Source of the DNA: a virus
IMG/VR virus record: IMGVR_UViG_3300013137_000026
Coordinates: 1 to 54,037 of that record
Length of the DNA: 54,037 nucleotides
Reading direction: 5' to 3' (one strand)
Positions 1,544-24,133 of the stretch are shown here, one piece after another (within the stretch, counting starts at the first letter, position 1; each line of letters opens with the position of its first letter). The translations under genes were made by a program, and so were the position numbers. The notes below the pieces were generated by a model. That model was not told the origin of the DNA. It was given only the letters and a program-made list of their open reading frames with translations, and searched no databases.

Positions 1544-1846
1544 ATGAGTGATAAAGATACAGAACAATTACAAGAAAGTTATAGAAGAATCATAAGAGAA
1601 GCCTCTGTCAGAGGATACAAACTGGTTGTTCATGAAGTCGGGAAGAAAGTAGAATATACATATTTTGCAAAAGGTCTTACCAAAGATGAAGCAGTTGCTG
1701 ATTTCAACAAAACATTACCAACCTTAGGGTATAAAGTAGAGAATTTTGAAATTATTAATGTTATTCCTTTAGCTTACGACCCGCAACTTGAGATAGACTA
1801 TAATCATGATAGTTTTCGAAAAGGTGCGAAATATCATGGAGACTAA
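1544..1846 (+). CDS. Small late protein with a putative capsid-targeting tag
   Basis: I do not recognise the body of this 100-residue protein. Its N-terminus, MSDKDTEQLQESYRRI, belongs to a tag shared by at least ten proteins in this window. The tag contains LQE|S and, eight residues on, IRE|A; both fit the (L/I)xE rule of T4-type prohead proteases, so the protein may enter the head and be trimmed there. The rest is a compact mixed alpha/beta-looking sequence with no Cys pair and no membrane segment. The start is fixed by CAGAGG ten bases upstream, and a late promoter lies just before it. Packaging and cleavage are inferred. Confidence 0.6.
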   Translation: MSDKDTEQLQESYRRIIREASVRGYKLVVHEVGKKVEYTYFAKGLTKDEAVADFNKTLPTLGYKVENFEIINVIPLAYDPQLEIDYNHDSFRKGAKYHGD

Positions 1847-1937
1847 AGTATTTTCTTTTAGGAAATATTATAAAGAACATTTTAAAGAACACTATCCTGA
1901 TTGGGCCTATTATTGGTTCAAATTACACAGGGTCTAA
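1836..1937 (+). CDS. Possible 33-residue overlapping small protein
   Basis: An ATG at 1836, inside the end of the preceding gene, opens a 33-residue frame rich in aromatic and charged residues (METKVFSFRKYYKEHF...). AAGGTG lies about nine bases upstream and could serve as a ribosome-binding site, and the overlap would allow coupled translation. It carries no tag and I recognise no family. It could be a chance frame, so confidence is low. Confidence 0.3.
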   Translation: METKVFSFRKYYKEHFKEHYPDWAYYWFKLHRV

Positions 1938-2013
1938 ATATAAAGATCTCGAGTACAATATAATATAGGAAAAGTAAAAAGGAAAAGTATAAAGAAAAAA
2001 GAGAAAGAAGAAA

Positions 2014-2187
2014 ATGAAAGATACAGATACAATAATATTAGAAGAAGTATATGATAAGGTTTGTAAAAACAACTCAGTATTAATGCGTATTCTTAAAAAA
2101 GTAGCTGCCGGACAGATGACTATTGAAGAAGCAGAAACACAAATTAAAAAGCTTGGGGCTTCAGGTGTTTATGCGGGCGGCACTTAA
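2014..2187 (+). CDS. Short protein with the putative capsid-targeting tag
   Basis: This 57-residue protein begins MKDTDTIILEEVYDKV, a member of the window's shared N-terminal tag, with LEE|V at the expected site. A second site-like IEE|A occurs around residues 36-38. The remainder is a short helical segment (LKKVAAGQMTIEEAETQIKK) and a Gly-rich end. The upstream GAAAGAAG is a weak ribosome-binding site. No late promoter sits directly in front, so it probably reads through from 1519. Being very short, it could be a bare tag with little cargo, or a gene cut off from the following reading frame (2190-2330) by a frameshift. Confidence 0.5.
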   Translation: MKDTDTIILEEVYDKVCKNNSVLMRILKKVAAGQMTIEEAETQIKKLGASGVYAGGT

Positions 2188-2189
2188 CC

Positions 2190-2330
2190 ATAGCGGCCAC
2201 TAAAAATAATTGGAATTTTGGTACATTTAATACATTAACAAACGAAAAAATTCAATTAGAAGATCCGAACGAATTAGCGGAAGATGTTTGGAATGATGTG
2301 AACATTCGAGTATGGGTTGAAAAGAAATAG
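2190..2330 (+). pseudogene. Start-less open frame, possible frameshifted tail of the gene before it
   Basis: A frame shifted relative to the preceding gene reads as plausible protein (KNNWNFGTFNTLTNEK, then an acidic stretch ending VWVEKK) up to TAG at 2328-2330, just before the clamp-loader gene. It has no ATG, GTG or TTG start in frame with a ribosome-binding site. It may be the detached C-terminal part of the 2014 gene after an indel, the product of a programmed frameshift, or a remnant of a lost gene. The protein-like composition is the only evidence. Confidence 0.3.
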
Positions 2331-2332
2331 TT

Positions 2333-2740
2333 ATGCTTCTTTTTAATTTTTTAAAAGATATTATCTATAGGAAACAGGGTGATTTACTTGATAACCCAGA
2401 GAATGAAGTGGATTTTACTCCTTGGTTAATTCAGCGTTGGTTGTCCATGTATTCAGAAGATTCGGCTAAGATATTAAACAATACAACAAACCAATTGTAT
2501 CCTGTTTTTGAAACAAAGAGGGAATGGTACAAGATATTTCTATCTACCATACCAAAAACATACTTCAAGAAGATTAAATATATTAAGAAGATTAAGAAGG
2601 ACAAGATCGATAATATCAATGAAGTTTATAAGTTTATTGCGCAAAATAAACAAATGTCGGTTAGAGAAGTAAAAGAGTATATTAAAGAGTTTAATATCGA
2701 TACTAAGCAATTAGAAAAGATATTTAAGAAAGAGGGTTAA
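2333..2740 (+). CDS. 62: Clamp-loader small subunit, gp62-like
   Basis: Probable non-ATPase subunit of the phage sliding-clamp loader, partner of the gp44-like ATPase encoded at 26147. It shows the pattern I associate with gp62-type subunits of T4-like phages: an early LKDIIYRKQGDLL helix, an acidic stretch leading to DFTPWLIQRWLSM near residues 28-40, a middle Asn-rich region, and a C-terminal small helical domain (VREVKEYIKEFNID). At 135 aa it is shorter than T4 gp62 (187 aa) but similar to small versions in other T4-like phages. The clamp it loads should also support late transcription if the T4 mechanism holds. It sits 24 kb from its partner gene. Confidence 0.6.
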   Translation: MLLFNFLKDIIYRKQGDLLDNPENEVDFTPWLIQRWLSMYSEDSAKILNNTTNQLYPVFETKREWYKIFLSTIPKTYFKKIKYIKKIKKDKIDNINEVYKFIAQNKQMSVREVKEYIKEFNIDTKQLEKIFKKEG

Positions 2741-2741
2741 T

Positions 2742-3143
2742 ATGGGTGAAGAATTAAATGCTAGAGGTTTACCAGCAACTGTCCATGGTGTTGTACCATC
2801 ACTAAGTCTTGATACCTATCGGGGTTCAAGAATTCCAACAGATTGGGAGATTATCGGTGTAGCTGGTGATATAATACGAGCAGAGTTTATAGATTGTACT
2901 GGTGATGGAGATTACATTGATCGTGGTGGTATATTACTAGACAATAAAGTATCACAATATACTTGGCGCATTGCTAAAGTTATCAATGTAGGTCCTCAAT
3001 GTCATGATACTAAACCTGGCGATCTAATTATGTTCCCAAATGATAAGGGTATTCCAATGACTAACGTTGGTGGAAAAAATTACATTTTCTTAAATGAAGC
3101 AAGAATATTTGCTTTTGTAAAACCTAAGACTATCGAAACATAA
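2742..3143 (+). CDS. 31: GroES-like co-chaperonin, gp31-like
   Basis: Probable co-chaperonin that caps the host GroEL ring so that the large capsid protein (19482) can fold, as T4 gp31 does for gp23. The GroES beta-barrel signature spans about residues 40-130: IIRAEF early, RIAKVINVGP, KPGDLIMFPNDKG and the final NYIFLNEARIFAFVK strand pair. The segment around residues 58-75 would correspond to the GroEL-contacting mobile loop. The length (133 aa) is slightly longer than GroES and gp31. It starts one base after the clamp-loader stop, after AGAGGG. The fold is well supported; the GroEL partnership follows from the family. Confidence 0.7.
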   Translation: MGEELNARGLPATVHGVVPSLSLDTYRGSRIPTDWEIIGVAGDIIRAEFIDCTGDGDYIDRGGILLDNKVSQYTWRIAKVINVGPQCHDTKPGDLIMFPNDKGIPMTNVGGKNYIFLNEARIFAFVKPKTIET

Positions 3144-3535
3144 TGAAAGTAACCATTCCAACCTTAAAACGATTATTAGCAGGAAATGTTATAGAATTGC
3201 GATTCCTGCGACGTCGTCCTAAGTTAGGTTGGAATAATACTAGACATATGTTATGTACTAACAATTGGCAATTGCTTAATTCAATACCAGGTAAGACAGC
3301 ACTTAGGTTTAAACCACCACATCAACAACCAAAATATAATCCAGATCAATATGGGTTGATCTGTGCATGGGATATAATGTTTTGCGAATATCGCATGCTT
3401 AGTCCAGAAACGCACGAAATAGTTGCAGTTATGCCTATTAAAACACCTGAAGAGATTGATAGATTTTGGTTATATTTTGCCGAAATGTTACAAAAGATGA
3501 GCCCGAGCGAAAAAGTTGGTTTCATGAATAATTAG
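3143..3535 (+). CDS. Conserved phage protein, possible SH3-like barrel
   Basis: A 130-residue protein of a type I have seen in other large T4-like phages. The N-terminal third is basic, with VIELRFLRRRPKLGW and a TRHMLCTNN segment, followed by RFKPPHQQPKYNP and LICAWDIMFCEYRM. This resembles small SH3-barrel proteins (DUF2693-like), but I cannot align it with certainty. It begins in a TAATG overlap with the GroES-like gene, so the two are probably translated together. The Arg-rich stretch could bind nucleic acid; no function is claimed. Confidence 0.5.
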   Translation: MKVTIPTLKRLLAGNVIELRFLRRRPKLGWNNTRHMLCTNNWQLLNSIPGKTALRFKPPHQQPKYNPDQYGLICAWDIMFCEYRMLSPETHEIVAVMPIKTPEEIDRFWLYFAEMLQKMSPSEKVGFMNN

Positions 3536-3542
3536 GAGTTAA

Positions 3543-3896
3543 ATGACTATAACAGATACACCACTAGAAAATATTCTTAAAAGTCTTTTACAAAAGAATG
3601 TAAAATTCAATTTAGGTGAAAAGACAATAAAAAAAGGTAAATTCATGCTTTTCAAACAAAACAATTATTGTTTAGAAATTATGATACAAACTAAGGGGAA
3701 CAATCTTAAGAAATTTGAGATTCCTATTCCTTATTATTTTGAGAAATGGCCTGAAGATAAACTAATTTATTTTGATTATAGATTTTCATCTTTAGCACGA
3801 AATAAAGAATCACGTAGAAAATTGTTCGAAAGTATACCAAAAGTAGGGAACAACAAATTCTATAACACAATACTTGAAATTCAAATAGATTCATGA
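3543..3896 (+). CDS. Hypothetical protein
   Basis: Not recognised. The 117-residue product is lysine-rich, with alternating hydrophobic and charged segments that suggest a small alpha/beta fold (KKGKFMLFKQNNYCLEIMI, then FEIPIPYYFEKWP). No Cys motif, signal peptide or membrane helix is present. It begins seven bases after the previous stop, with GGAG upstream, and belongs to the same tightly packed operon. Confidence 0.55.
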   Translation: MTITDTPLENILKSLLQKNVKFNLGEKTIKKGKFMLFKQNNYCLEIMIQTKGNNLKKFEIPIPYYFEKWPEDKLIYFDYRFSSLARNKESRRKLFESIPKVGNNKFYNTILEIQIDS

Positions 3897-3913
3897 TATA
3901 ATAATTAGGAAAT

Positions 3914-4246
3914 ATGAACTTAAAATTATTTTTTAGTATGATATCTGGTGATTTGTATTATGTCGAAGAAGATGAAGTTAAGAATCTTGATAGTGCACAG
4001 ATTCCGTTAAAACAAAAACCAAGCACCTCTTGTAAAAAATGTTATGGAAGATTTCATATAGGTAAGTATTCTCAAATGCAAGAAGGTAAATGGCAACAAA
4101 AATATTATGCTATTTGTCCTAAATGCGCGCCTAAATGTATTGATTGGGATGCTGTTAATAAGAAGGAAGTTAAAGTAGAATTACCAAGAACTACAACCGA
4201 AATAGCATCAGATTCTTTTAATGATGCAATCAATTTGGTAAAATAA
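3914..4246 (+). CDS. Hypothetical zinc-ribbon protein
   Basis: Not assigned to a family. The 110-residue protein has two Cys pairs, CKKC near residues 40-43 and CPKC near 73-76, with a further Cys at 80, arranged as a zinc ribbon with about 30 residues between the knuckles. The ends of the protein are acidic and polar. It lies directly upstream of the helicase gene and overlaps its ATG (TAATG), so coupled expression and a possible functional link with the helicase are plausible. DNA or RNA binding is inferred from the ribbon only. Confidence 0.6.
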   Translation: MNLKLFFSMISGDLYYVEEDEVKNLDSAQIPLKQKPSTSCKKCYGRFHIGKYSQMQEGKWQQKYYAICPKCAPKCIDWDAVNKKEVKVELPRTTTEIASDSFNDAINLVK

Positions 4247-5880: not shown

Positions 5881-5899
5881 TCCAGATTATGAAATAATT

Positions 5900-5973
5900 A
5901 TGTAAAGGAAGAAAATAATATTATAAAATTGTACGAAGAAGGGTATAGTACAAAAAGATTACACGGAGATTAA
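5900..5973 (+). pseudogene. Possible HTH remnant between helicase and kinase genes
   Basis: A short start-less frame ending in TAA at 5971-5973 reads NNIIKLYEEGYSTKRLHGD, which looks like the first helices of the homeodomain-like HTH found in phage homing endonucleases. There is no start codon or second recognition helix. It may be a scrap of a lost mobile nuclease; it is too short to be sure. Confidence 0.2.
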
Positions 5974-5984
5974 TAAAATTTTAT

Positions 5985-6494: not shown

Positions 6495-6500
6495 ATATTG

Positions 6501-6511
6501 TATAAATATTT
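6501..6511 (+). promoter_or_regulatory. T4-like late promoter (with a second copy just upstream)
   Basis: TATAAATATTT, an exact match to the T4 late octamer TATAAATA at its start. A near-copy ATAAATATTG begins at 6491. It lies only a few bases before the ATG at 6515, so the leader would be extremely short; the start of transcription may come from the upstream copy. Confidence 0.6.
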
Positions 6512-6514
6512 AAA

Positions 6515-7726: not shown

Positions 7727-7753
7727 TTTCATACCTTAATAAAACGAAAACCC

Positions 7754-7764
7754 GATAAATAATT
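7754..7764 (+). promoter_or_regulatory. T4-like late promoter
   Basis: GATAAATAATT, 17 nt before the portal start codon at 7781. Confidence 0.6.
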
Positions 7765-7780
7765 AAGAAAGATTTAGTTT

Positions 7781-9550
7781 ATGAACACAGATAGAAGTTT
7801 TGCGAGTGTATTATTAGCCAAAGTTCCATTCTCTTGGAGAATTATTGATTCGATCTCTCACCTTAATCCTAAATATGAAGCATTTCATGATTTAACTGCT
7901 AGAAAAGACGAGAGAATACTCCAACAATCTGTTGTACAATATAAATCTTCTGCAATTGATGATCCAGTCGGTGGTATGATCCAAATAAATAAGGATTACC
8001 ACAAGTATATGTACGCTGGTATCGATATGGATAAGATCCGTAGATTACAGGATTATCGTCGTATGGCAGCATATTCTGAGGTAGCTGAGGCTATTGATGA
8101 GATTTGCGATGAAACAATTGTCAAAGATGAGAACGACGAGATTCTAAAATTCCATTTACGTGGCGAATTTGAAAAAGAGATCCGAGAAGAAATAACTAAA
8201 GAATGGAATAATTACTCAACAGTGTATGATTTAGAGAATAGAGGTTGGGAATATTTTAGACAGTTTCTAACGGATGGGGAATTATATTTTGAAAATGTGG
8301 TATCTAAGAATAGACCAGATTATGGTATTTTAGGTGTTGTTAATATTCCGCCAGAACTTATTAATCCGATTTATGATAATGTTCAAAATGGGTTAATTAA
8401 GGGGTATTTGCTTCGTAGACCAATTCGTGATGCAAAGAAACAACATAACGAAAAAGAAGAACTTATTTTATTAGACAAAAATCAAATTTGTTATATTAAT
8501 TCTGGAATTTGGAATGAAGATAGATCTATTAGATTACCCTATATTGAGGCTTGTCGCAGAGCTTATAAACAACTATCCTTGATTGAAGATTCGATTGTTA
8601 TATATAGATTAGTAAGAGCACCAGAAAGATTAGCTTTTTATGTTGATGTTGGTAACATGCCGCCACCAAAAGCCGAAGCATATCTAAAGCGTTTGATGCA
8701 ACAATATTGGACTCGTCGAAGTTATGATGCTAATAGTTCAAGAGTAACTAATGTATATGATCCACAATCCATGTTAGATGCATTTTGGTTTGCCCGACGC
8801 GCTGGAGATCAGGGCACAAAGGTTGAAACTTTACCAGGCGGCGCCAATTTAGGTCAGCTTGATGACCTCAACTACTTCCTTAAGAAACTCTATAAAGCCC
8901 TTAAGATTCCAATTAGTCGGATGGATCCAGCTGATCCGTTCAAAGATGGTACGGAGATTACGCGAGAAGAATTAAAATTTGCTCGATTTGTAATGAGAAT
9001 TCAGCGTCAGTTTGCCATGGGTGTTAAAGATGGGTTTATGGTACATCTTAAACTCCGTAAATTGTGGGATCAATACAAACTTAAAGAATACAATTTCGAT
9101 CTAGAATTTAATACGCCAACTCAGTTCATGTTAATGCGTGAACAACAAGTTCAAGATCTGCGTTACAACAATTATAACAACATGACTTCAACAGAATTGG
9201 TATCTCATTCTTATGCTCAGAGGTATTATTTAAATTGGGCAGATGATCAAATGGCAGAAAATCGTGAGTGGTTAAGAAAAGATGCTGAACTAATGTGGGA
9301 AATTGAACAAATTAGAACAGCTGGTCCTAACTTCCGTGAACAGCAAGCGGCTGTTGGTCAAGCTATGTCAGAATTAGAAGGTAAAGGTGGCGGAGGCGGA
9401 TTACCACCAGCATTTGGGCCTGGTCCAGCACCAACCACCGGTGAAGAAACACCTCCAGGAGAAGCAGCTCCAGAAGCAGGTGCTCCAGCCACTCCTGGTG
9501 TTCCAGCCACTCCTGGTGCTCCAGCCACAACAACACCACCTGCAGCATAA
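7781..9550 (+). CDS. 20: Portal protein, gp20-like
   Basis: Forms the dodecameric ring at the head vertex through which DNA is packaged and ejected, and starts prohead assembly. T4-type portal signatures are clear: RMAAYSEVAEAIDEICDE at residues 94-111, the wing/stem stretch DGELYFE at 165-171, and a C-terminal part with RITREELKFARF-type helices (here EITREELKFARFVMRIQRQF near 400-420). At 589 aa it is a little longer than T4 gp20 (524 aa) because of a Gly/Pro/Ala-rich, probably disordered tail from about residue 536, including an 18-nt repeat. It lies under its own late promoter. Confidence 0.92.
   Translation: MNTDRSFASVLLAKVPFSWRIIDSISHLNPKYEAFHDLTARKDERILQQSVVQYKSSAIDDPVGGMIQINKDYHKYMYAGIDMDKIRRLQDYRRMAAYSEVAEAIDEICDETIVKDENDEILKFHLRGEFEKEIREEITKEWNNYSTVYDLENRGWEYFRQFLTDGELYFENVVSKNRPDYGILGVVNIPPELINPIYDNVQNGLIKGYLLRRPIRDAKKQHNEKEELILLDKNQICYINSGIWNEDRSIRLPYIEACRRAYKQLSLIEDSIVIYRLVRAPERLAFYVDVGNMPPPKAEAYLKRLMQQYWTRRSYDANSSRVTNVYDPQSMLDAFWFARRAGDQGTKVETLPGGANLGQLDDLNYFLKKLYKALKIPISRMDPADPFKDGTEITREELKFARFVMRIQRQFAMGVKDGFMVHLKLRKLWDQYKLKEYNFDLEFNTPTQFMLMREQQVQDLRYNNYNNMTSTELVSHSYAQRYYLNWADDQMAENREWLRKDAELMWEIEQIRTAGPNFREQQAAVGQAMSELEGKGGGGGLPPAFGPGPAPTTGEETPPGEAAPEAGAPATPGVPATPGAPATTTPPAA
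9483..9532 (+). repeat. 18-nt tandem repeat encoding an APATPG-type tail in the portal
   Basis: Almost three copies of CTCCAGCCACTCCTGGTG start at 9483, 9501 and 9519, encoding six-residue Ala/Pro/Thr/Gly units at the end of the portal protein. The copies differ by one base. The repeat may expand or contract by slippage. Confidence 0.8.
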
Positions 9551-9567
9551 TAAAGCTCGATATTTTT

Positions 9568-14802: not shown

Positions 14803-14813
14803 AATAAATAATT
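14803..14813 (+). promoter_or_regulatory. T4-like late promoter
   Basis: AATAAATAATT, followed by CAGAGG and the start at 14827. It heads a run of four tagged genes. Confidence 0.6.
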
Positions 14814-14826: not shown

Positions 14827-15141
14827 ATGAACAACAAAGATACTCGATTATTAGAAGAAGCATATGGCGGAATGATTAAATCAAAAATTCCTGGTGCTCG
14901 AAGAATGCATCCACCAGTAGCTAATACTCCATCCGAAATTGGTACAATCAAGAAAACTCTTAAGCTTAAGCCCACGGCACGTATAAAATTACAAATACGT
15001 AAAGAATTAAAATTTTCAGGAATATCACAAGATCGGGCTGAAGCAATAATGGGTATGATAGAAGATTTAGAGATGGAAGCAGAACATGATGGTTATATGG
15101 ATGGCAGTGATCCTGGGGAACCCGGTCCCGATCCAAGGTAA
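14827..15141 (+). CDS. Small late protein with the putative capsid-targeting tag
   Basis: A 104-residue protein not otherwise recognised. It begins MNNKDTRLLEEAYGGM with the predicted step LEE|A. The body is basic in the middle (KKTLKLKPTARIKLQIRKELKF), suited to DNA contact inside the head, then has an acidic helix (GMIEDLEMEAEHDGY) and a Gly/Pro-rich end. It is the first of four consecutive tagged genes directly upstream of the gp4/gp21/gp22/gp23 block. Late expression follows from the promoter at 14803. Confidence 0.6.
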   Translation: MNNKDTRLLEEAYGGMIKSKIPGARRMHPPVANTPSEIGTIKKTLKLKPTARIKLQIRKELKFSGISQDRAEAIMGMIEDLEMEAEHDGYMDGSDPGEPGPDPR

Positions 15142-15149
15142 TACAAATT

Positions 15150-15491
15150 ATGAATAAAAAAGACATACAAATACTAACTGAAGCATATTCACACATTCAT
15201 GAAGCTGAAGTGGGTACCATGCCAATTGATCCTAAATACAACATTGCTTCTGCAGAATCAGCACCAGGAATGGCCAAGGTTGATAAAGCGTTAGAGTTAA
15301 GTAATCCAAAAGATGTGGGCAAGAATGCTGAAAAGTCTACTAACAAAAAAATTATAAATGAATTAAAAGAACTTGTTAAATCATTACAAAATGCGAGACG
15401 TGGCTATAATAGTGGCGAATGGGGTGAAGGTTGGGAAGCTGGCATGACAAGTGCATCATATCAATTAGAAGAATTAATTTCTCAATTATAG
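15150..15491 (+). CDS. Small late protein with the putative capsid-targeting tag
   Basis: The 113-residue protein starts MNKKDIQILTEAYSHI. The shared tag gives LTE|A, and a second site, IHE|A, follows seven residues later, so stepwise trimming is possible. The body is polar, with a Lys-rich centre and a C-terminal helix containing a Gly/Trp-rich turn (SGEWGEGWEAG). No known domain is seen. AAGG upstream serves as ribosome-binding site; the gene lies eight bases after the previous stop. Confidence 0.6.
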   Translation: MNKKDIQILTEAYSHIHEAEVGTMPIDPKYNIASAESAPGMAKVDKALELSNPKDVGKNAEKSTNKKIINELKELVKSLQNARRGYNSGEWGEGWEAGMTSASYQLEELISQL

Positions 15492-15500
15492 GTCTGAAAC

Positions 15501-15806
15501 ATGAATAAAAAAGATATTAAACAATTAAATGAAGCCTACTCAAAAGTTAAACCCATCAATGAGGTACATTATGCCTATCCAGGTAATATGGCTCATTTAA
15601 TGACACATAAAAGTCTTCAATCGCCGGTATCTGAACCACGATTACCCATTAGTACTGATCAAATAGCTCACGAGGTGACAAGTAGAGTATGGGATCTTTT
15701 TGAAGATGCTGTAAATAATCAGAGAAGATTATCAGAACCATGTGTTAAACGTATAGTTCTAAGTATAATAGAGAAATATTTCAAAGATAGGGGACAACAT
15801 GAATAA
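15501..15806 (+). CDS. Small late protein with the putative capsid-targeting tag
   Basis: The 101-residue protein starts MNKKDIKQLNEAYSKV, almost identical in its first residues to the preceding gene (MNKKDI in both). LNE|A is the predicted site, with INE|V ten residues on. The remainder, with a long helix (IAHEVTSRVWDLFEDAVNNQ) and a basic end, is unrelated to the neighbours. Its end overlaps the next tagged gene at 15799. Confidence 0.6.
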   Translation: MNKKDIKQLNEAYSKVKPINEVHYAYPGNMAHLMTHKSLQSPVSEPRLPISTDQIAHEVTSRVWDLFEDAVNNQRRLSEPCVKRIVLSIIEKYFKDRGQHE

Positions 15807-16956
15807 AGACGATATCAGAATGATGACAGAGGTATATAACAAAATGCCTAACAGAAAAGAAACAGGGTTTATTCAAATCGAAACCCCTAATGATTATACA
15901 AATTTTATTAGATTACTTGGATATGATTCCCAGCAATTATTTGAAACTACTACTGGTGGAAGTTGGAAAACTTTAAAGGGTAAATGGATTGAGGTAACTA
16001 AAGCTGAGGTAATAAGTCATTTTAGTCAATCCCCCTATAAATCTGCCGAGAGTTTAAATGAAAACGATGATATCGTTGAACTTATTAATGGTAGATTAAT
16101 TATTGATAAGCCTAATAAGTATACACCAAAATCCTTTAAGGAGAGTAAAATGAAAGATAATGATTTAACTATGTTACAAGAGAAATATGCTAATATATAT
16201 TCTGGAAATGTGGACGATTCTGATGAGGATGAAGAGAGCGAAGAGAAGGAAGATAAAGAAGAAAATCATAAGAAACATGAAGATTCTGAATCAGAGGACG
16301 AAGAAAAAGAAGAACATGAATCCGATGAGGATGAAGATAAAGAGGAGAAACATGAAGATTCTGAATCAGAGGACGAAGAGAAGGAAGAACACGAAGACGA
16401 CTCCGAAGGAGACAACGCCGACGCCGACGAAGAGTCCGAATCTTCTAACGACGATAGTGAAGAATCTTCTGATGGAGAAGCAGCCCCAAGCAAAGAAGTC
16501 CAAAACAAGATTCAAGCTCTTAAGAAACAATATAACGACATATTAGTAAAAGCGTTTACAGATTACGCTCCTGAGTGTATTGAAATGGCTCTTGATGAAT
16601 CTGAAACGTCATTTGGCGAAAATGTAGAAAATATTCTTTCTGCAGCATTAGAACATCTTAAGACACGAATATTATCTGATTTTGGTTTAGGTAGTGAGTG
16701 TGGTTGTGAATTGGATAATGTTGGTACCGATCATGACGAAACAGATCTCGAAGGTGAAGTTGTACCAAAGTTAAATTCTAAAATAGGAACAATATTAAAG
16801 TTCGGAGAAGCTACAGATGAAGATGCTGAAGGCTTTGAAGCAACTAAATTTGGTGCCTCAGGACATTCTGAAGGACATGAAGCAACTAAATTTGGATCAG
16901 GTTTAAACAGAAAAAACAAAAAGAAGTCCAAAAAAGACAAGGCTAAAAATAAGTAA
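15799..16956 (+). CDS. Tagged protein with a highly acidic core and a second internal tagged start
   Basis: A 385-residue frame starting MNKDDIRMMTEVYNKM, a variant tag with MTE|V. Residues 1-115 are an ordinary small domain. A second tag, MKDNDLTMLQEKY, begins at residue 118 (nt 16150) after its own AAGGAG, so two products are likely. Residues 138-235 are almost entirely Asp, Glu, Ser and Lys, with a repeated 25-residue unit. A helical domain (235-320) has a CGC cluster, and two EATKFG motifs precede a Lys-rich tail. T4 gp67, an acidic prohead core protein at the same relative place, is a possible functional counterpart; homology is not shown. Confidence 0.6.
   Translation: MNKDDIRMMTEVYNKMPNRKETGFIQIETPNDYTNFIRLLGYDSQQLFETTTGGSWKTLKGKWIEVTKAEVISHFSQSPYKSAESLNENDDIVELINGRLIIDKPNKYTPKSFKESKMKDNDLTMLQEKYANIYSGNVDDSDEDEESEEKEDKEENHKKHEDSESEDEEKEEHESDEDEDKEEKHEDSESEDEEKEEHEDDSEGDNADADEESESSNDDSEESSDGEAAPSKEVQNKIQALKKQYNDILVKAFTDYAPECIEMALDESETSFGENVENILSAALEHLKTRILSDFGLGSECGCELDNVGTDHDETDLEGEVVPKLNSKIGTILKFGEATDEDAEGFEATKFGASGHSEGHEATKFGSGLNRKNKKKSKKDKAKNK
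16150..16956 (+). CDS. Internal-start product of the acidic gene, with its own tag
   Basis: ATG at 16150 is in frame with the larger gene and preceded by AAGGAG at a good distance (16138-16143). It would give a 268-residue protein starting MKDNDLTMLQEKYANI, again with the LxE site (LQE|K). Because the internal start reproduces the tag, it is unlikely to be accidental. It could reflect a fusion of two formerly separate tagged genes, with both starts kept. Confidence 0.5.
   Translation: MKDNDLTMLQEKYANIYSGNVDDSDEDEESEEKEDKEENHKKHEDSESEDEEKEEHESDEDEDKEEKHEDSESEDEEKEEHEDDSEGDNADADEESESSNDDSEESSDGEAAPSKEVQNKIQALKKQYNDILVKAFTDYAPECIEMALDESETSFGENVENILSAALEHLKTRILSDFGLGSECGCELDNVGTDHDETDLEGEVVPKLNSKIGTILKFGEATDEDAEGFEATKFGASGHSEGHEATKFGSGLNRKNKKKSKKDKAKNK
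16273..16379 (+). repeat. Two 32-nt identical copies, period 75 nt, in the acidic region
   Basis: The same 32 bases begin at 16273 and 16348 and encode KHEDSESEDEE. The 75-nt period keeps the frame (25 residues). It is a recent internal duplication in the acidic segment. Confidence 0.8.
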
Positions 16957-16978: not shown

Positions 16979-17425
16979 TTGAAAAGATATAAACAGGGGA
17001 TTTATCGACCTATACACCAAGAGAAGTATCGCGGATCCCAACCTATATGTTATCGCAGTTCTCTTGAACTTAGGTTCATGAGATTTTGTGACACCAATTC
17101 AAATATTATTACTTGGGGATCTGAGTCGGTAGTACTGCCATATATCCGTCCTACCGATGGTAAACTACATAGATATTTTGTTGACAACAATCTAGTTATC
17201 AAAGATAAAGAAGGAACATTACATAAATATCTAGTTGAAATTAAACCATATAAACAAACACTACCACCCAGCAGTATTAATAGAAAAAATAAAGGAACTT
17301 TACTAAAAGAACAATTTATGTATGCAATTAACATGGCCAAGTTTCAAGCTGCAAAACAATGGTGCGCTAAACAAGGTTGGAAATTCATGATTATTACCGA
17401 AAAGGATCTCAACAAATTAAAGTAA
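16979..17425 (+). CDS. 4: Head-completion nuclease, gp4-like (TnsA/PD-(D/E)XK fold)
   Basis: Probable head-completion protein that prepares the filled head for tail joining, like T4 gp4. Recognisable elements: YRSSLELRFMRFCD with the conserved Glu near residue 30, ITWGSESVVLPYIRP, HRYFVDNNLV with the catalytic Asp, and the E-x-K pair in YLVEIKPYKQT near residues 85-95, followed by a C-terminal WKFMIITEKDL strand. The length, 148 aa, equals T4 gp4 (about 150 aa). The start is a TTG after GAGAATGAG; no in-frame ATG precedes it. It lies between the acidic gene and the protease gene. Confidence 0.75.
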   Translation: MKRYKQGIYRPIHQEKYRGSQPICYRSSLELRFMRFCDTNSNIITWGSESVVLPYIRPTDGKLHRYFVDNNLVIKDKEGTLHKYLVEIKPYKQTLPPSSINRKNKGTLLKEQFMYAINMAKFQAAKQWCAKQGWKFMIITEKDLNKLK

Positions 17426-17428
17426 AGT

Positions 17429-17439
17429 GATAAATATTT
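17429..17439 (+). promoter_or_regulatory. T4-like late promoter
   Basis: GATAAATATTT before the prohead protease gene (start 17458), with GGAGG between. Confidence 0.6.
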
Positions 17440-17457
17440 ACGAATTATGGAGGAATT

Positions 17458-18138
17458 ATGACCTGCGCACTAGAAGGCTTAAAACTGCTTATCGAACATC
17501 CAAATTATGAAATAGAATACGTTCTAGAAGAAAAAAACACAAAAGAACCTTCTTCACTTTTTATCCACGGTCCATACTTAATGGCGGAACAAAAAAATAA
17601 AAATGGGCGCGTTTATAAATTAGATGAGATGCTCAAAGAGGTTACCAGGTATAATAAAGAAATGATTGAAACCAATAGATCAATCGGTGAACTCAATCAT
17701 CCGACTTCGGTTGAAATTAATCCAGAACGAGCTTGTCATAAACTAGTCTCTCTCAAACAAGAAGGTAATACATTTGTAGGAAAATCTAAAATCCTTAATA
17801 CTCCTATGGGTCATTTAGTACGCAATCTAATTTTAGATGGGGTTAAGCTTGGTATTTCAAGTAGAGCATTAGGAAAATTAAACCAAAATGGTGATCATAA
17901 TGATGTATCAGATTTTCGTTTAATTTGTTGCGATATTGTTCACGATCCATCGGTAGAAACGGCTTTTATTAATGGTATTTTGGAAAGTAAGGAATGGCTT
18001 GTAAAGTGTGATGGTACCATTTGCGAACTATATGATAAATTTGAAAAGAAAATAGAGTCAATTCCTAATAAAGATGCCGACGCATATCTAAGAGAACAGA
18101 TTCTGAACTTTATTCAATCATTAAAAACAAAAAAATAG
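17458..18138 (+). CDS. 21: Prohead core protease, gp21-like (S80 family)
   Basis: Cuts scaffold, capsid protein and internal proteins during head maturation, mostly after (L/I)xE. Family features: FIHGPYLMAEQKNKNGRVY at residues 35-53, the catalytic His in IGELNHP (H81), the catalytic Ser in LGISSRALG (S134 or S135), and VHDPSVETAF after it. At 226 aa it matches T4 gp21 (212 aa). GGAGG precedes the start. It is the enzyme expected to process the tagged small proteins encoded on both sides, the core protein and the capsid protein in this window. Confidence 0.9.
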   Translation: MTCALEGLKLLIEHPNYEIEYVLEEKNTKEPSSLFIHGPYLMAEQKNKNGRVYKLDEMLKEVTRYNKEMIETNRSIGELNHPTSVEINPERACHKLVSLKQEGNTFVGKSKILNTPMGHLVRNLILDGVKLGISSRALGKLNQNGDHNDVSDFRLICCDIVHDPSVETAFINGILESKEWLVKCDGTICELYDKFEKKIESIPNKDADAYLREQILNFIQSLKTKK

Positions 18139-18148
18139 ACCCAAAAAC

Positions 18149-18159
18149 TATAAATAATT
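18149..18159 (+). promoter_or_regulatory. T4-like late promoter
   Basis: TATAAATAATT, starting with the exact T4 octamer, before the core protein gene (start 18176). Confidence 0.65.
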
Positions 18160-18175
18160 AAGAGAGAGGTTCATT

Positions 18176-18559: not shown

Positions 18560-18568
18560 GAGAATAAT

Positions 18569-19468
18569 ATGAGTAAGATTAAGGAAATGTTAGAAAAGGT
18601 AGGTAAGGATGTTTTATCTGCTGAAACAAAGACTGTTTTAGCTGAAGCATTCGATACAGCCGTTAACGAATTAGTTACTGAGCGTGTTAAGCTCGAAGTT
18701 GATTCAGCGCTACAAAAATTAGATGAAGATCATACTCAAAAGCTCATAAAACTTTTAGAAGCTGTTGATTTAGATCACACAGAAAAATTGAAGAAGGTTG
18801 TTGCTAAGATCGATGAAGATCACGCAGGTAAACTTCAATCAGTTGTTGGCAAATATGAAGGTATGTTAAAAGAGGAAGCTGTAAAGTTCCGTGATGCTTT
18901 AGTAAGCGAAGTATCAAATTATATGGATCTTTATTTAGACAAGACCGTTCCAGCACGTCAAATTGCTGAAGCTTGCGAAGCTACCGCAGCCAAGAGAATG
19001 ATTAGCGATATTAAGAAGATTGTTTCTGTTGACGAGAGCTTTATTAATGATAATATTAAAGAAGCGCTTGAAGATGGTAAGCAACAAATAGATACACTTC
19101 GTGGTGAGTTGAACGAAGCTATTAAAGAGAATGTAAAGTTGAATCAAGATATCAAGTCTGCTAAAACAGAATTGATGCTCGAACAAAAAACCATAGCTTT
19201 CCCTAAAGAGAAGAAAGATTATGTAATGAGGGTACTCAAGGATAAGTCCCCTGACTATATTACGGAAAATTTCGACTACGCTGTTGAGATGTTCGTAAGG
19301 GATGAGAAGGATGCAGTTTCGATTATTACCGAACAGGCTAAGAAAGAAACAGCTACTTCCAAGGTCGATACACCGCCCGTTCAAATAAAAGAAACGGTAG
19401 ATCCCGAAACTGAAGAGGCACCAGTTAACGAATATCTAAGTGAGCTCAAACGACAAGATCGTCGTTAA
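18569..19468 (+). CDS. 22: Major prohead scaffold protein, gp22-like
   Basis: Forms the prohead core around which the capsid assembles and is then degraded by the protease. The 299-residue chain is almost all helical with heptad-like patterning, including three related segments of about 22 residues (KLDEDHTQKLIKLL, DLDHTEKLKKVV, KIDEDHAGKLQSVV at about residues 50-95). Several LxE/MxE steps (LAE|A, LLE|A, LNE|A, MLE|Q) offer cleavage points. VPARQIAEACEA and the C-terminal YVMRVLKDKSPDYI part match the gp22 family. Length and position between the core protein and gp23 agree with T4. Confidence 0.85.
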   Translation: MSKIKEMLEKVGKDVLSAETKTVLAEAFDTAVNELVTERVKLEVDSALQKLDEDHTQKLIKLLEAVDLDHTEKLKKVVAKIDEDHAGKLQSVVGKYEGMLKEEAVKFRDALVSEVSNYMDLYLDKTVPARQIAEACEATAAKRMISDIKKIVSVDESFINDNIKEALEDGKQQIDTLRGELNEAIKENVKLNQDIKSAKTELMLEQKTIAFPKEKKDYVMRVLKDKSPDYITENFDYAVEMFVRDEKDAVSIITEQAKKETATSKVDTPPVQIKETVDPETEEAPVNEYLSELKRQDRR

Positions 19469-19481
19469 ATGGAGACAGACA

Positions 19482-20951
19482 ATGAACAAACCCGGACCTA
19501 ACTTCATAACACCGGATAAAGCAACGCAACTTTTAGAGAAGTGGCAACCCATCTTGGATTACACATCTTCTAAGGTAGCAGCTATCGAGGATGATCATAC
19601 CAGATTGGCAACAGCTATTCTTTTGGAAAACCAAGAGAGGCATTGCATTTCTGAACAAAATGTAGGCGGCGGAACTAATGGTGCATTTAGTGCATATGCA
19701 GGCACAGCAGATGTCGGTGCGTATGGTGGAGCCTCTGGCCCAACCAACAACGACTTTTATGGTGCAGGTGACGCCCGTTTACCGAAAGTCCTTATTCCGA
19801 TGATTCGAAGAACATTCCCCGAATTGATTACTAACGAAATCGTTGGTGTTCAACCGATGAGTGGTCCTGTTGGTCTTGCTTTTGCTCTTCGTTATAGATA
19901 TGACTCAGCTGCTCTCGGTGCCGGTACTGCATGTAGTGATAGTGATAGTACTTGCAACCTTCCAGGGTGGCGATCAGGTCAGACTACTGACGACCAAGAA
20001 GTTGGTTGGAATAACTTAGACACTCGTTATACGGGTGCTTCTTCGCAATTCCTCAGCGGCTTAGGCTCAGGGTCTGATTTTGCGATATTGACAAGTGATC
20101 AAGGTGTAGCCAACATTTTGGCTAGCTTCGAATTTACTTCGAACATTCCGCAAATGACAATCCAATTCGAGAAGACAGCTGTTGAAGCTGGAACTCGTAG
20201 ATTGGCAGCTAAATGGTCAGTCGAACTCGAACAAGACATCAAAAACATGAATGGTATCGATATTGATGCCGAACTCACCAACGCAATGAGCTATGAAATT
20301 CAAGCGGAAATCGATCGTGAAATGATTATCCGAATGATTCAAGTAGCTTTGAACGCTGGTTCTGGCGTCGGATATTCATTCTGGTACGCAGCATGTGCTG
20401 ATGCCCGCTGGCTCGGTGAACGAACAAGAGATTTCTACGCTAAAGTTATCGTAGAAGCCAATAGGATTGCAATCCGTAACCGCAGAGGTACAGCTAATTT
20501 TATTGTAGCTACGCCTCGTGTCTGCGCTATGCTTGAAATGCTTCCAGAATTCAAGTTTATGCCAATGACAGGTAATGTTAATACTCAACCCGTAGGTATT
20601 GCTAAGGTTGGTAGCGTGGGAGGCCGTTTCACGGTTTACCGCGATACTCGTACTGATGCACAAAACCCATGGGCAGGAACGCCAAGTGGTCAACGTACCA
20701 CAGCGCTCGAGTATGCTTTACTAGGTTACAAAGGTGCTGAGTATTACGATACCGGTATAATTTATTGCCCATATATTCCAGTGATGATTCAAAGAACGAT
20801 CGGTCCTAATGACTTTGCTCCTAGAGTTGGTTTACTAACACGTTACGGTGTGGTAGATAATCTCTTTGGTGCAAGCCTTTATTACCACGTAATTATCGTC
20901 AAGGGATTGGGCGATTCATTCGTACCAGGTACTGCTCATACATATTTGTAA
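19482..20951 (+). CDS. 23: Major capsid protein precursor, gp23-like
   Basis: Forms the hexameric head lattice. The T4 gp23 pattern is seen throughout: the N-terminal LLEKWQPIL, ILLENQE, VPMIRRTFPELITNEIVGVQPM-type region (here LIPMIRRTFPELI, IVGVQPMSGPVGLAFALR), RLAAKWSVELEQD and the end RYGVVDNLF. The frame is open from 19440, but GGAG at 19471-19474 sets the start at 19482, giving 489 aa. By analogy with T4, where gp21 removes 65 residues, cleavage after E58 (CISE|Q, then NVGGG) would leave 431 residues. Codon use is more GC-rich than in its neighbours, as expected for the most abundant protein. Confidence 0.93.
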   Translation: MNKPGPNFITPDKATQLLEKWQPILDYTSSKVAAIEDDHTRLATAILLENQERHCISEQNVGGGTNGAFSAYAGTADVGAYGGASGPTNNDFYGAGDARLPKVLIPMIRRTFPELITNEIVGVQPMSGPVGLAFALRYRYDSAALGAGTACSDSDSTCNLPGWRSGQTTDDQEVGWNNLDTRYTGASSQFLSGLGSGSDFAILTSDQGVANILASFEFTSNIPQMTIQFEKTAVEAGTRRLAAKWSVELEQDIKNMNGIDIDAELTNAMSYEIQAEIDREMIIRMIQVALNAGSGVGYSFWYAACADARWLGERTRDFYAKVIVEANRIAIRNRRGTANFIVATPRVCAMLEMLPEFKFMPMTGNVNTQPVGIAKVGSVGGRFTVYRDTRTDAQNPWAGTPSGQRTTALEYALLGYKGAEYYDTGIIYCPYIPVMIQRTIGPNDFAPRVGLLTRYGVVDNLFGASLYYHVIIVKGLGDSFVPGTAHTYL

Positions 20952-20976
20952 ACTGTTGATATATATCAATAGTTTA
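20949..20976 (+). other. Hairpin overlapping the capsid gene stop codon
   Basis: TAAACTGTTGATA and TATCAATAGTTTA pair, with one G/T position in the middle. It begins with the stop codon of the capsid gene and has no U-run after it. It may protect the 3' end of the capsid mRNA; it is not a typical terminator. Confidence 0.45.
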
Positions 20977-21034
20977 TACATAAGTAAAAAGCAAATACTT
21001 AATTGGGAATGATTTAATAATCATTAGACCACAG

Positions 21035-21068
21035 ATTAAGGGAATTCGAAAGAATTCCCTTAATTTTT
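21035..21068 (+). terminator. Rho-independent terminator after the capsid gene
   Basis: ATTAAGGGAATTC pairs perfectly with GAATTCCCTTAAT around a GAAA tetraloop, followed by a run of T. This is the clearest terminator in the window and would end the head operon before the homing endonuclease gene. Confidence 0.85.
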
Positions 21069-21111
21069 GCTTTGATTACATATTATGATACTATCATGTA
21101 TAATTATTTAT

Positions 21112-22554
21112 ATGAAAATATGTGCGTGTGGTTGTGGTACGGAATTAAAAAATGAAAAGAACACTTTTATTCGAGGTCATAGTAATAGATCTGAATTGGT
21201 AAAGCAAAAGAAACGTCAAAAATGTCTTCAAAAATATGGAGTTACAAACCCAAGCCAATTAGATTCTGTTAAAGATAAAAAGAAAACTACATGTCTAGAG
21301 CATTACGGTTCAACCCATTATATGAAATCGCAGTTAGGAAAAGATGCGGTTAAAACAACAATTCAAGCAAGATATGGGGTTGATAATATTTTTCAACATG
21401 AAGAAACAAAAAAGAAAATACATGAGAAATGGATGAATAAGAAGGAGGATATTGTCAAGAAAATAGTCAATACCAACAAAAGACAATTTTATAACAATCT
21501 CATTAATGGTGTCAGACTAAATAATAAATTTATACCATTATTTACACAAAAAGAGTTTATTGGTGTAGGAAAAATTAAATATAGGTTTAGATGTTTAAAG
21601 TGTGGTTCGGTTTGCGATTCGGATTTAGATGATGGTAAATTGCCCCGCTGTCTTATTTGTCATCCTTTTATTACTTCTGGCGGTCAATCTAAGATTGAAT
21701 ATGATTTGATTTCATTTCTCAGAAAGTATGAACCAGATCTAATTGTTCATGATAGAAAGACTGTATATCCGTTAGAATTAGATATATTTATACCAAGTAA
21801 GAATTTAGCAATTGAATTAGATAGTTTATACTGGCACTCAGAATTAAACGGAAAACATAAAAATTACCACAAATATAAGACAGATATTTGTAAGAATAAG
21901 AACATTAGATTAATTCATATTTTTGATGATGAATGGCTTAATAAACCAAAGATTGTTAAAGCGAGATTAAAGTATATCTTAGGCAAAAATAAATATAAGT
22001 TCGGCGCCCGAGAGTGTGTAATTAAAGAAATTAGTACTGGTATTAAAAATCAGTTTCTTAATAAGTATCACATTCAGGGTAAAGACAGAAGTAGTATAAA
22101 ATTAGGAGCATATTATAAAAACAGATTAGTTTCTGTTATGACATTTGCACAGTTAAGAAAAGCTTTGGGAAGCAATACAAAATTAGATCATTACGAATTA
22201 TCAAGATTTTGTACCATTAAGAATTTTTCTATATCTGGTGTTGCTAACAAATTATTTAAGGTATTCTGTGAACAATATAAACCAATTGAAGTAATTACAT
22301 ATGCAGATTTACGGTGGAATACTGGTAATTTATATCAGAACTTGGGTTTTATGTTGAAACATGTAAGTAGACCAAGTTACTGGTATACGAAAGATTATAC
22401 TAACAGGATTCATAGGTTTAATTTCAGAAAGGATTTGTTAAGGGAAAAATTGGTTCAGTTCGATCCAAATCTTTCAGAGTGGAACAACATGAAGAATAAT
22501 GGATATGATCGAATTTGGGATTGTGGCAATCTTGTTTTTGTATATAAGTCATAG
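21112..22554 (+). CDS. VSR-like (EDxHD-type) homing endonuclease with zinc ribbon
   Basis: Probable mobile DNA endonuclease. From the ATG at 21112 (MKICACGCG; the frame also opens at 21085) it has an N-terminal Cys cluster, two related repeats (CLQKYGVTNPSQ and CLEHYGSTHYM, then ARYGVDNIFQ) typical of phage endonuclease recognition modules, a zinc ribbon (CLKC ... CLIC), and the nuclease core LELDIFIPSKNLAIELDSLYWHSE, then HKYKTDIC and IHIFDDEW, as in I-Bth0305I-like enzymes. A long C-terminal domain follows. It sits just after the capsid terminator, a usual place for such elements. No good ribosome-binding site is seen. Confidence 0.8.
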   Translation: MKICACGCGTELKNEKNTFIRGHSNRSELVKQKKRQKCLQKYGVTNPSQLDSVKDKKKTTCLEHYGSTHYMKSQLGKDAVKTTIQARYGVDNIFQHEETKKKIHEKWMNKKEDIVKKIVNTNKRQFYNNLINGVRLNNKFIPLFTQKEFIGVGKIKYRFRCLKCGSVCDSDLDDGKLPRCLICHPFITSGGQSKIEYDLISFLRKYEPDLIVHDRKTVYPLELDIFIPSKNLAIELDSLYWHSELNGKHKNYHKYKTDICKNKNIRLIHIFDDEWLNKPKIVKARLKYILGKNKYKFGARECVIKEISTGIKNQFLNKYHIQGKDRSSIKLGAYYKNRLVSVMTFAQLRKALGSNTKLDHYELSRFCTIKNFSISGVANKLFKVFCEQYKPIEVITYADLRWNTGNLYQNLGFMLKHVSRPSYWYTKDYTNRIHRFNFRKDLLREKLVQFDPNLSEWNNMKNNGYDRIWDCGNLVFVYKS

Positions 22555-22560
22555 TAAAAC

Positions 22561-22571
22561 AATAAATATTT
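22561..22571 (+). promoter_or_regulatory. T4-like late promoter
   Basis: AATAAATATTT eight bases after the endonuclease gene, before the tagged gene at 22584, with AAAGAGG between. Confidence 0.6.
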
Positions 22572-22583
22572 CAAAGAGGTCTT

Positions 22584-22898
22584 ATGGACAAAGATAACAT
22601 TTTACTCCAAGAAGCATACAAAAAAATTATAGTAGAAGCACTGTCACCAACAATGCGCAGACAAATGAACGTAGCTAAACCAAAATCACAGGATTTTCAA
22701 GTTGGTCAAGAAGTTATATACACAGATGGTGATGGTCAAGAGTATTGGACTGTAATAACATCAGTACAAAAAGACGGAACAGTTGGAATTGCAATTAAAA
22801 ATACAAATCCATTGTTTGTAAGATCAGCACAATACCATATTGGTACTCAGTTAGTAGTAAGTAAAGAAGAGTTAAGTTTACCAGAAGATGGTGAGTAA
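22584..22898 (+). CDS. Small late protein with the putative tag and a KOW/SH3-like body
   Basis: The 104-residue protein starts MDKDNILLQEAYKKI, the shared tag one residue shorter, with LQE|A and a second site IVE|A seven residues on. From about residue 35, FQVGQEVIYTDGDGQEYWTVITSV looks like a small SH3/KOW-type barrel. A barrel of this kind may bind nucleic acid or protein. It is the first gene of the second tagged cluster, downstream of the capsid gene. Confidence 0.6.
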   Translation: MDKDNILLQEAYKKIIVEALSPTMRRQMNVAKPKSQDFQVGQEVIYTDGDGQEYWTVITSVQKDGTVGIAIKNTNPLFVRSAQYHIGTQLVVSKEELSLPEDGE

Positions 22899-22910
22899 TT
22901 AGGGGGTGTT

Positions 22911-23126
22911 ATGATATTAATAGGATTAGAAAATTGCGAAGGATGTAAATTGATCCACGCCCGGCATATGGAATTAACCTATTTAGAGGTTCCAAGAAAT
23001 GCAACTCCTGAGAATAACAACATTAAGAAAATATTAGCAGAGTTAAATTTAAGTGAATATCCAATGTTGTTTGAAGATGATTTAAAAACATTGATACCGT
23101 TGAAAGTTATTGAACCAAATTTATAG
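22911..23126 (+). CDS. Glutaredoxin-like protein
   Basis: A 71-residue thioredoxin-fold protein with the redox pair C9-E-G-C12 after a first strand (MILIGLE), a second strand (LTYLEVPR) and the conserved cis-Pro loop in SEYPMLFEDD (P51). It is shorter than usual glutaredoxins (about 80-90 aa) but has the key elements. Phage glutaredoxins reduce ribonucleotide reductase; class III NrdD, present here, does not need one, so it may serve another reductase outside the window or the host. It is unusual in lying inside a cluster of late tagged genes and lacks the tag itself. The start follows AGGGGG. Confidence 0.65.
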   Translation: MILIGLENCEGCKLIHARHMELTYLEVPRNATPENNNIKKILAELNLSEYPMLFEDDLKTLIPLKVIEPNL

Positions 23127-23133
23127 GAGACAC

Positions 23134-23466
23134 ATGAACGATAAAGATACAAAGATATTACAAGAAGCATATGGTAAAATTAAGAAACCTCAAGTTCTTA
23201 AAGAACAATTAAGTCATAGACTTAATCCAGTATCTTATAAGGATTGGGATGAAGGTGATAAGATCATAGACGTATATGTAGGTGCTATCGGAGATCGTAT
23301 GGTCGTACGACTTACATTTGGTCATTCTTTTACGATAATGATGGAAATGAGCGAGTTTAGACAGTTCGTTCGTAAATTGATGATGACTGATAAAGAAGTT
23401 GCAGAAGCACTTCATTCAAAAATTCAATCACAATCACCAGATACTTATAAAAACTATTTGAAATAA
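23134..23466 (+). CDS. Small late protein with the putative capsid-targeting tag
   Basis: The 110-residue protein starts MNDKDTKILQEAYGKI, close to the consensus of the tag. LQE|A is the predicted step and LKE|Q follows 11 residues later. The frame is open from 23110, but TAGGAGA fixes the start at 23134. The body has a beta-rich segment (IIDVYVGAIGDRMVVRLTFG) and a C-terminal helical part. No family is recognised. Confidence 0.6.
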   Translation: MNDKDTKILQEAYGKIKKPQVLKEQLSHRLNPVSYKDWDEGDKIIDVYVGAIGDRMVVRLTFGHSFTIMMEMSEFRQFVRKLMMTDKEVAEALHSKIQSQSPDTYKNYLK

Positions 23467-23470
23467 TATC

Positions 23471-24133
23471 ATGAAAGATAAAGATACTAAATTGCTCAGT
23501 GAGGCATATTCAAAAATTTTCGAACGGGCTAATCAAACTAGATCTGAAAATACACCCACAAAGAAAATTCAACAACTAAAAGAATCAGAAATTGCTGGAG
23601 TTGCTACATTTTTTCAACAAAGACATAATCCAGAAAATGGTTTGTCTAAAATGCCGTTTTTAGATGCTATTCAAGCATATATAGTAGAACGAGGACTTTC
23701 TGGTAAAGATGAAACGAAATTTCTTCGCAATATAGTACGATTGACGAAATTATCACCAGAAATTAAATCAATCCTTAAAGACAGAATAAATTCAAATTTA
23801 ACACAACAACTTGAAAGTCATCAATCCACACAAAGTGATATTATTGATGAAGAAGTAACTTTATTGCAAGAAGATTTAGGTCGCATATTGGGTAATTTAT
23901 ACGTGGATCTTTTTAGATATTTTAAATGTAAACAAGGTGCTCAAACAGCCGGACCATGTCCTCAATCAAGGGATTTAGTTGCTAAATTAATTGGTTGGGC
24001 ACAAGTAAATAAACAGCATGAAGTAGCTCAAAAAATTAGTAATGTAATTAATGTCGGTAGAATTCAAAAAGCTTCAGAGGATGACATTATTACAACAATT
24101 TGGAATAAACTAAGACAATATTCTTCGCAGTAA
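23471..24133 (+). CDS. Late protein with the putative capsid-targeting tag
   Basis: At 220 residues this is among the largest tagged proteins. It starts MKDKDTKLLSEAYSKI, with LSE|A and then IFE|R. A tag-like echo, EEVTLLQEDLGRI, occurs near residue 127-139, again with LQE, and could be an internal cleavage site separating two halves of about 120 and 85 residues. The segments between are helical. It lies four bases after the previous tagged gene and ends one base from a convergent gene on the other strand. Confidence 0.6.
   Translation: MKDKDTKLLSEAYSKIFERANQTRSENTPTKKIQQLKESEIAGVATFFQQRHNPENGLSKMPFLDAIQAYIVERGLSGKDETKFLRNIVRLTKLSPEIKSILKDRINSNLTQQLESHQSTQSDIIDEEVTLLQEDLGRILGNLYVDLFRYFKCKQGAQTAGPCPQSRDLVAKLIGWAQVNKQHEVAQKISNVINVGRIQKASEDDIITTIWNKLRQYSSQ

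Follow-up and report, generated by a model that had tools for sequence, protein, structure and literature searches.

A long N-terminal tag on unrelated proteins of uncultured T4-like phages, a probable capsid-targeting propeptide

The 54-kb IMG/VR fragment IMGVR_UViG_3300013137_000026 (54,037 nt, analysed in full and hereafter called the window) comes from an uncultured T4-like phage, a virus of bacteria. Ten starts in the window, lying around the genes for a gp21-type prohead protease, a gp22-type scaffold candidate and a gp23-type major head protein, encode variants of M-x-x-K-D-x-x-x-L-x-E-A-Y, and the sequences that follow (the bodies) are mutually unrelated (best cross-match E = 0.06). 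It is very probable that this long tag functions as a capsid-targeting propeptide of the T4 kind, a reading that draws on the motif itself, its modularity, its link to phages with gp21, the late-promoter-like sites shared by tagged genes and head genes, and a match to mapped residues of T4. What is new here is a long-tag version of the T4 targeting system that stands out for how broadly it occurs and how varied its cargo is.

The long tag and its likely cleavage site

The tag family topped an unbiased all-pairs comparison of the N-termini of window open reading frames (ORFs) by a wide margin, and a strict DNA pattern of the tag occurs five times in the window but not once in 100 dinucleotide shuffles. 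All ten starts listed in the initial annotation exist and encode the variants given there (Table 1), the one at 22584 being shorter by one residue, and the bodies are indeed unrelated, as it had noted. The motif it described is real, although the conserved stretch is longer, reaching about Y+6 and continuing as Y-x-x-[VI]-[LY]-x-E. The tyrosine (Y12) is present in 160/160 tags and in all ten window tags. At positions that the search had left unfixed, 85% of the 160 tags have a hydrophobic residue at Y+3, usually V or I, and 71% have one at Y+4. A second hydrophobic-x-E site is found at Y+5 to Y+8 in 93 of the 160 (58%), compared with 14–22 in intervals from Y+17 on (93 vs 16, p = 7e-21), and this enrichment was replicated on 38 unseen tagged proteins (18 vs 3). 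Within the window, the second site is carried by six of the ten tags, at 1544, 15150, 15501, 22584, 23134 and 23471 (one counted at Y+11).

The ten N-terminal residues of T4 IPIII, MKTYQEFIAE, suffice as a capsid-targeting sequence (CTS), in which targeting depends on residues 4 and 7 and processing on residues 8 and 10 (PMC9026906). Y4, F7, I8 and E10 of this sequence, which is cut between E10 and a following A, align in register with Y12, V/I15, L/Y16 and E18 of the long tag. Given this match, the most fitting view of the tag is that of a T4-type targeting sequence extended at its N-terminus, and cleavage is likelier to follow the second Glu than to occur at LxE↓AY (arrow, cleavage); the second hydrophobic-x-E is probably the scissile site and LxE↓AY a possible one. 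The earlier proposal of a capsid-targeting tag is well supported, but not its view of the tag as a different sequence, since the T4-like core Y-x-x-[VI]-[LY]-x-E is contained within it.

Distribution, cargo and association with gp21

A DNA pattern for the long tag, scanned over viral contigs, matched at least 120 stretches, while a scrambled-order control pattern with the same codons and equal specificity matched seven. Among the matches listed, 129 of 134 tag occurrences open an ORF of at least 50 aa. A tighter pattern was found in at least 119 stretches of viral contigs but in only five stretches across 257 Gb of bacterial and archaeal genomes; three of these five open ORFs, and none clearly resembles a tagged phage gene. 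Some contigs carry many tags: four on L085 (flanking gp21), about seven on L155 and eleven on L164. The long tag is absent from T4, Syn9, HTVC008M and phage 9g. A tblastn search with the 20-aa consensus returned no matches, the query being too short, and no description of the long tag was found in the papers that could be searched.

Clustering of the 156 non-redundant tagged bodies found outside the window gave 97 clusters, of which 82 have a single member. The tag is a module joined to about 100 unrelated bodies, in keeping with the general cargo system proposed from the window. A domain search of 143 tagged proteins returned, besides the enzymes and domains listed at the foot of Table 1, GNAT acetyltransferases, dUTPase_2, GP88 and a MoxR-type AAA domain; most bodies are uncharacterised. 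A short module, KPDYLDADGDGDKKEPMKKAL, recurs in tagged proteins of L172, L439 and L483 and in gp111 of cyanophage S-CREM2, a virion protein that has only short modules in common with the tagged bodies.

Pfam and PHROGs gave no above-threshold family match for the ten window bodies, and no Pfam or PHROG family of the T4 internal proteins (IPI, IPII, IPIII) matched any of them. The SHOCT-like domain of 2014..2187 (PF22746, E = 2.6e-5) falls just under the Pfam cut-off. A related-locus search with the bodies of 23471 and 1544 found no relatives, and the AlphaFold model of the 23471 protein is helical, at low confidence (pLDDT 61). One carrier is itself a prohead-core-like protein (16150..16956), which favours a role in the head. 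Its C-terminal part is kept in the gp21-lineage relatives L002-L006, L008-L011 and L013 (E from 2e-26 to 1e-9), most relatives of this acidic protein carrying no tag. The internal tag reported at 16150 is present and in frame, 117 codons from the tag at 15799, but it belongs to this small core-like protein rather than to an obvious cargo protein. As the L002 homologue of the acidic part begins at the equivalent of 16150, that position could be a genuine start, or it could mark a second tag in frame.

The expected association with gp21-type proteases was recovered across phage contigs. Of the 26 tagged contigs of at least 50 kb, 16 carry a T4-type gp21 (E < 1e-20), compared with one of 18 random contigs, chosen by an arbitrary 16-mer (p = 1.4e-4). 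Such a gp21 was present in all five tagged contigs over 200 kb, whereas four of five random contigs of that size gave weak, distant S77 matches only. In the window, the gp21 gene lies in the middle of the tagged set, as the initial annotation had it, and its product scores 89.7 bits on PF03420, above the gathering cut-off of 27.

Whether a short N-terminal motif predicts packaged proteins was assessed in S-CREM2 (OR473000), a cultured relative for which a virion proteome of 52 proteins is published (PMC10665884). The T4-type motif [YF]xxF[ILMVF]xE within the first 32 residues occurs in six of 219 S-CREM2 ORFs, five of which encode virion proteins (p = 0.003), and four control windows contained no matching ORF; a start-anchored motif fixed beforehand gave four virion proteins out of five (p = 0.012), and the 32-residue form was picked after those data. 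The matches include four non-structural virion enzymes, namely SAM hydrolase gp6, Cas9-like gp12, kinase gp14 and cytidylyltransferase gp154. The accessible part of the S-CREM2 paper does not remark on T4-type targeting motifs in these four proteins. No long tag was found in the S-CREM2 proteome, and two looser matches are non-virion proteins; the result favours a general rule on the short motif but is no direct support for the long tag. Some genomes contain both long-tag and T4-type-tag genes, which are adjacent in G018. In another genome (G020:C1:195589-199008), small genes bearing T4-type tags (MSFKQFFTES, MYFNQLVLEE, MYFDRLIKEA) are clustered 2-3 kb from long-tag genes.

Late-promoter-like sites and the head-gene setting

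The sequence [AG]TAAATA[AT]TT occurs 20 times in the window, against 6.3 expected, and 14 of the 20 sites lie 13–28 bp upstream of a gene start. The genes preceded in this way include those for the portal and neck, gp21 and its next downstream neighbour, a gp25-like gene, and the genes that open the three tagged clusters (1544, 14827 and 22584). The tagged clusters thus share late-promoter-like sites with the head genes, in keeping with the late promoters suggested initially, and from these sites late expression is predicted. The classical TATAAATA was rejected as a late promoter, having no association with gene starts in the window.

The coordinates of tagged genes, head genes and promoter-like sites are given in Table 1. 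No family match was obtained for the scaffold candidate in a PHROG-type search. For the major head protein gene, the ATG at 19482 is the likelier start, and LLENQERHCISE↓Q is proposed from the sequence as the protein's own gp21 site.

Table 1. Tagged genes, head genes and late-promoter-like sites of the window, with tagged enzymes and domains of related contigs
Position	Strand	Feature	Tag or site	Basis
1521..1530	+	Late-promoter-like site, 23 bp upstream of 1544	GTAAATATTT
1544..1846	+	Tagged protein, 100 aa; MSDKDTEQLQESYRRIIRE↓AS, second site IRE↓A	MSDKDTEQLQESYRRI
2014..2187	+	Tagged protein, 57 aa: tag plus SHOCT-like domain; second site absent	MKDTDTIILEEVYDKV
7781..9550	+	Portal, gp20 type		phrog_213, E = 6.8e-109
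14804..14813	+	Late-promoter-like site before 14827	ATAAATAATT
14827..15141	+	Tagged protein, 104 aa; opens 14827-16956 cluster	MNNKDTRLLEEAYGGM
15150..15491	+	Tagged protein, 113 aa; second site IHE↓AE	MNKKDIQILTEAYSHI
15501..15806	+	Tagged protein, 101 aa; second site INE↓V	MNKKDIKQLNEAYSKV
15799..16956	+	Two-tag ORF; second tag at 16150	MNKDDIRMMTEVYNKM, MKDNDLTMLQEKYANI
16150..16956	+	Tagged acidic prohead-core-like protein	MKDNDLTMLQEKYANI	T4 gp67/gp68 position, between portal and gp21
16979..17425	+	Head-closure/gp4-type protein		phrog_218, E = 4e-50
17430..17439	+	Late-promoter-like site before gp21	ATAAATATTT
17458..18138	+	gp21-type prohead protease (Peptidase_S77), proposed processing enzyme		PF03420, E = 2.2e-25; phrog_207, E = 1.7e-57
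18569..19468	+	gp22-type scaffold candidate, proposed docking partner		Position between gp21 and major head protein; length
19440..20951	+	gp23-type major head protein		phrog_138
22562..22571	+	Late-promoter-like site before 22584	ATAAATATTT
22584..22898	+	Tagged protein, 104 aa; second site IVE↓AL; opens 22584-24133 cluster	MDKDNILLQEAYKKI
23134..23466	+	Tagged protein, 110 aa; second site LKE↓Q	MNDKDTKILQEAYGKI
23471..24133	+	Tagged protein, 220 aa, largest cargo in window	MKDKDTKLLSEAYSKI
L099:2862-3332		Tagged protein, PARP/ADP-ribosyltransferase (ART)-like domain		Pfam match under curated cut-off
L121		Tagged protein, NUDIX
L164		Tagged protein, poly(A)-polymerase/CCA-type tRNA nucleotidyltransferase with HD
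L116		Tagged protein, PGDYG

Several other genes were seen in the window. A GroES-like co-chaperonin (2742-3143, phrog_3188), a possible analogue of T4 gp31, is encoded near two tagged genes. ORFs at 65-937 and 21085-22554 look, by eye, like homing endonucleases, and the latter separates the major head protein gene from a tagged cluster. Within that cluster, 22911-23126 encodes a small, untagged glutaredoxin-like protein with a look-alike at an equivalent place in L003 (11271). Further along (31566-52454) are five very large tail/baseplate genes encoding 1100–1624 aa apiece, in which PKD- and NHL-like repeats are apparently abundant.

Proposed mechanism, competing readings and known systems

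The tag M-x-x-K-D-x-x-L-L-x-E-A-Y-x-x-[VI]-[LY]-x-(x)-E would be a T4-kind propeptide to which an N-terminal half has been added, probably forming one amphipathic helix. Tagged proteins would be made late, alongside the head proteins, and the helix residues L8, Y12, V/I15 and L/Y16 would dock onto the prohead core formed by gp21 and gp22. Cleavage by the gp21-type protease would follow a hydrophobic-x-E, most likely the one five to eight residues past Y12, and perhaps E10 as well. In the two-tag ORF (15799-16956), such cleavage could split one polypeptide into two products, unless 16150 is a second start. The freed bodies may remain in the head, where DNA would be packed round them, and be carried by the genome into the next host. 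The tag would then be a general loading module for unrelated bodies, several of them enzymes with plausible roles in takeover or counter-defence. It is rather likely that a large unrecognised class of such tags forms a general loading code in uncultured T4-like phages, by which dozens of unrelated enzymes (ADP-ribosyltransferase-like proteins, NUDIX proteins, tRNA-repair nucleotidyltransferases, acetyltransferases, nucleotide pyrophosphatases) would be packed and injected, together with a majority of proteins without known function, and that N-termini alone predict the injected set.

A number of observations weigh against a targeting propeptide cut at the second site. About 40% of tagged proteins lack that site, including four of the ten in the window. 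PF03420 was undetected in 10 of the 26 tagged contigs of at least 50 kb, three of these ten being longer than 100 kb and possibly fragmentary, and when weak S77 matches of giant phages are counted the contrast with random contigs shrinks to 16/26 vs 5/18 (p = 0.03). No phage was found that combines the long tag with a virion proteome, S-CREM2 carrying the T4-type motif only. Long-tag and T4-type genes lie suggestively close together in G018 and G004, but over all genomes their proximity falls short of significance (8 vs 4.5 expected, p = 0.10), and the nearest long relative of the window (G001) has T4-type tags such as MKRTFEQFIYEA and few long tags.

An identical loading system with a cut after the first LxE, as initially proposed, would leave Y-x-x-[VI]-[LY] on the mature protein or keep the downstream site as a backup. 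This is possible but doubtful. L/I/M-x-E is present in all ten window tags, four of which miss the second site; Glu stands at Y-2 or Y-3 in 160/160 tags (in part a result of selection, as the search pattern fixed E10); and a single propeptide can be cut at several sites by T4-like proteases (PMC9026906, PMC10052503). The targeting residues of T4, however, precede the cut and are removed, whereas the most conserved residues here, Y12 and V15, would stay on the cargo. Moreover, the first Glu is moved by one, to Y-3 (LLENLY, LLEQAY), in 35 of the 160 tags, and 26 of these 35 retain the second site. LxE↓AY is not supported as stated, and the second Glu is the likelier point of cleavage. The absence of a second site from some tags would also suit an uncut helix that docks onto the prohead core or another late structure, as would the amphipathic spacing of L8, Y12, V15 and L16 and a helix at residues 2-22 of the 23471 model, predicted with very low confidence; given the enrichment of hydrophobic-x-E at a fixed spacing and the co-occurrence with gp21, this is unlikely.

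The distance between tagged genes and head genes in several genomes would be expected if the tag sent proteins elsewhere (tail, membrane or replication compartment) or acted as a regulatory leader without packaging. Such a role is improbable in view of the in-register match to T4, the prohead-core-like carrier, the co-occurrence with gp21 and the ability of the short motif to predict S-CREM2 virion proteins. Likewise, the tandem arrangement of tagged genes (14827-16956, 22584-24133) could reflect a recently duplicated gene family whose shared N-terminus is leftover homology with no function of its own. This is the least probable of the explanations, as bodies are unrelated within and between genomes and include known enzyme folds, and conservation is limited to the first 16–19 residues.

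If a T4-kind targeting propeptide is the correct reading, a code of 16–19 residues marks proteins that are injected before phage gene expression, when host defences must be disarmed. Hundreds of 'hypothetical proteins' of environmental phages could then be tested as factors of early takeover or counter-defence, and T4-like capsids could be loaded with chosen proteins by means of a second, portable address label. As the S-CREM2 check indicates, packaged enzymes beyond the T4 group can already be predicted from the T4-type core motif.

Related systems share parts of this picture. T4 Alt is a packaged ADP-ribosyltransferase, and the tagged ART/PARP-like protein of L099 has the idea of ART loading in common with it, although the tag differs and the domain match is under the curated Pfam cut-off. 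In phiKZ and SPN3US, many head proteins and ejection proteins carry N-terminal propeptides that are removed by a protease cutting after Glu, but that protease belongs to a distant branch with another cleavage motif, and the accessible parts of the sources describe no comparable shared short tag. The T4-type motifs of cyanophages, such as MKNFSSFLTEA of the S-CREM2 cytidylyltransferase gp154, share the core [YF]xxF[IL]xE, an enzyme cargo and presence in virions; they are without the KD..LxEA half and are not called a targeting tag in the accessible part of the proteome paper. The CTS of T4 IPI, IPII and IPIII is, like the long tag, a short N-terminal peptide common to otherwise unrelated small head proteins, with an aromatic residue at i, hydrophobic residues at i+3 and i+4 and, in 58% of the long tags (at Y+5 to Y+8), a hydrophobic-x-E corresponding to the one with Glu at i+6, in a genome with a gp21-type protease and with late expression (here predicted from promoter-like sites). 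The long tag differs in having about eight extra residues (MxxKDxxLLxEA) before Y, V/I instead of F at i+3 and a second Glu whose spacing can shift by one or two residues; it also has many more carriers in each genome, with a far wider range of bodies.

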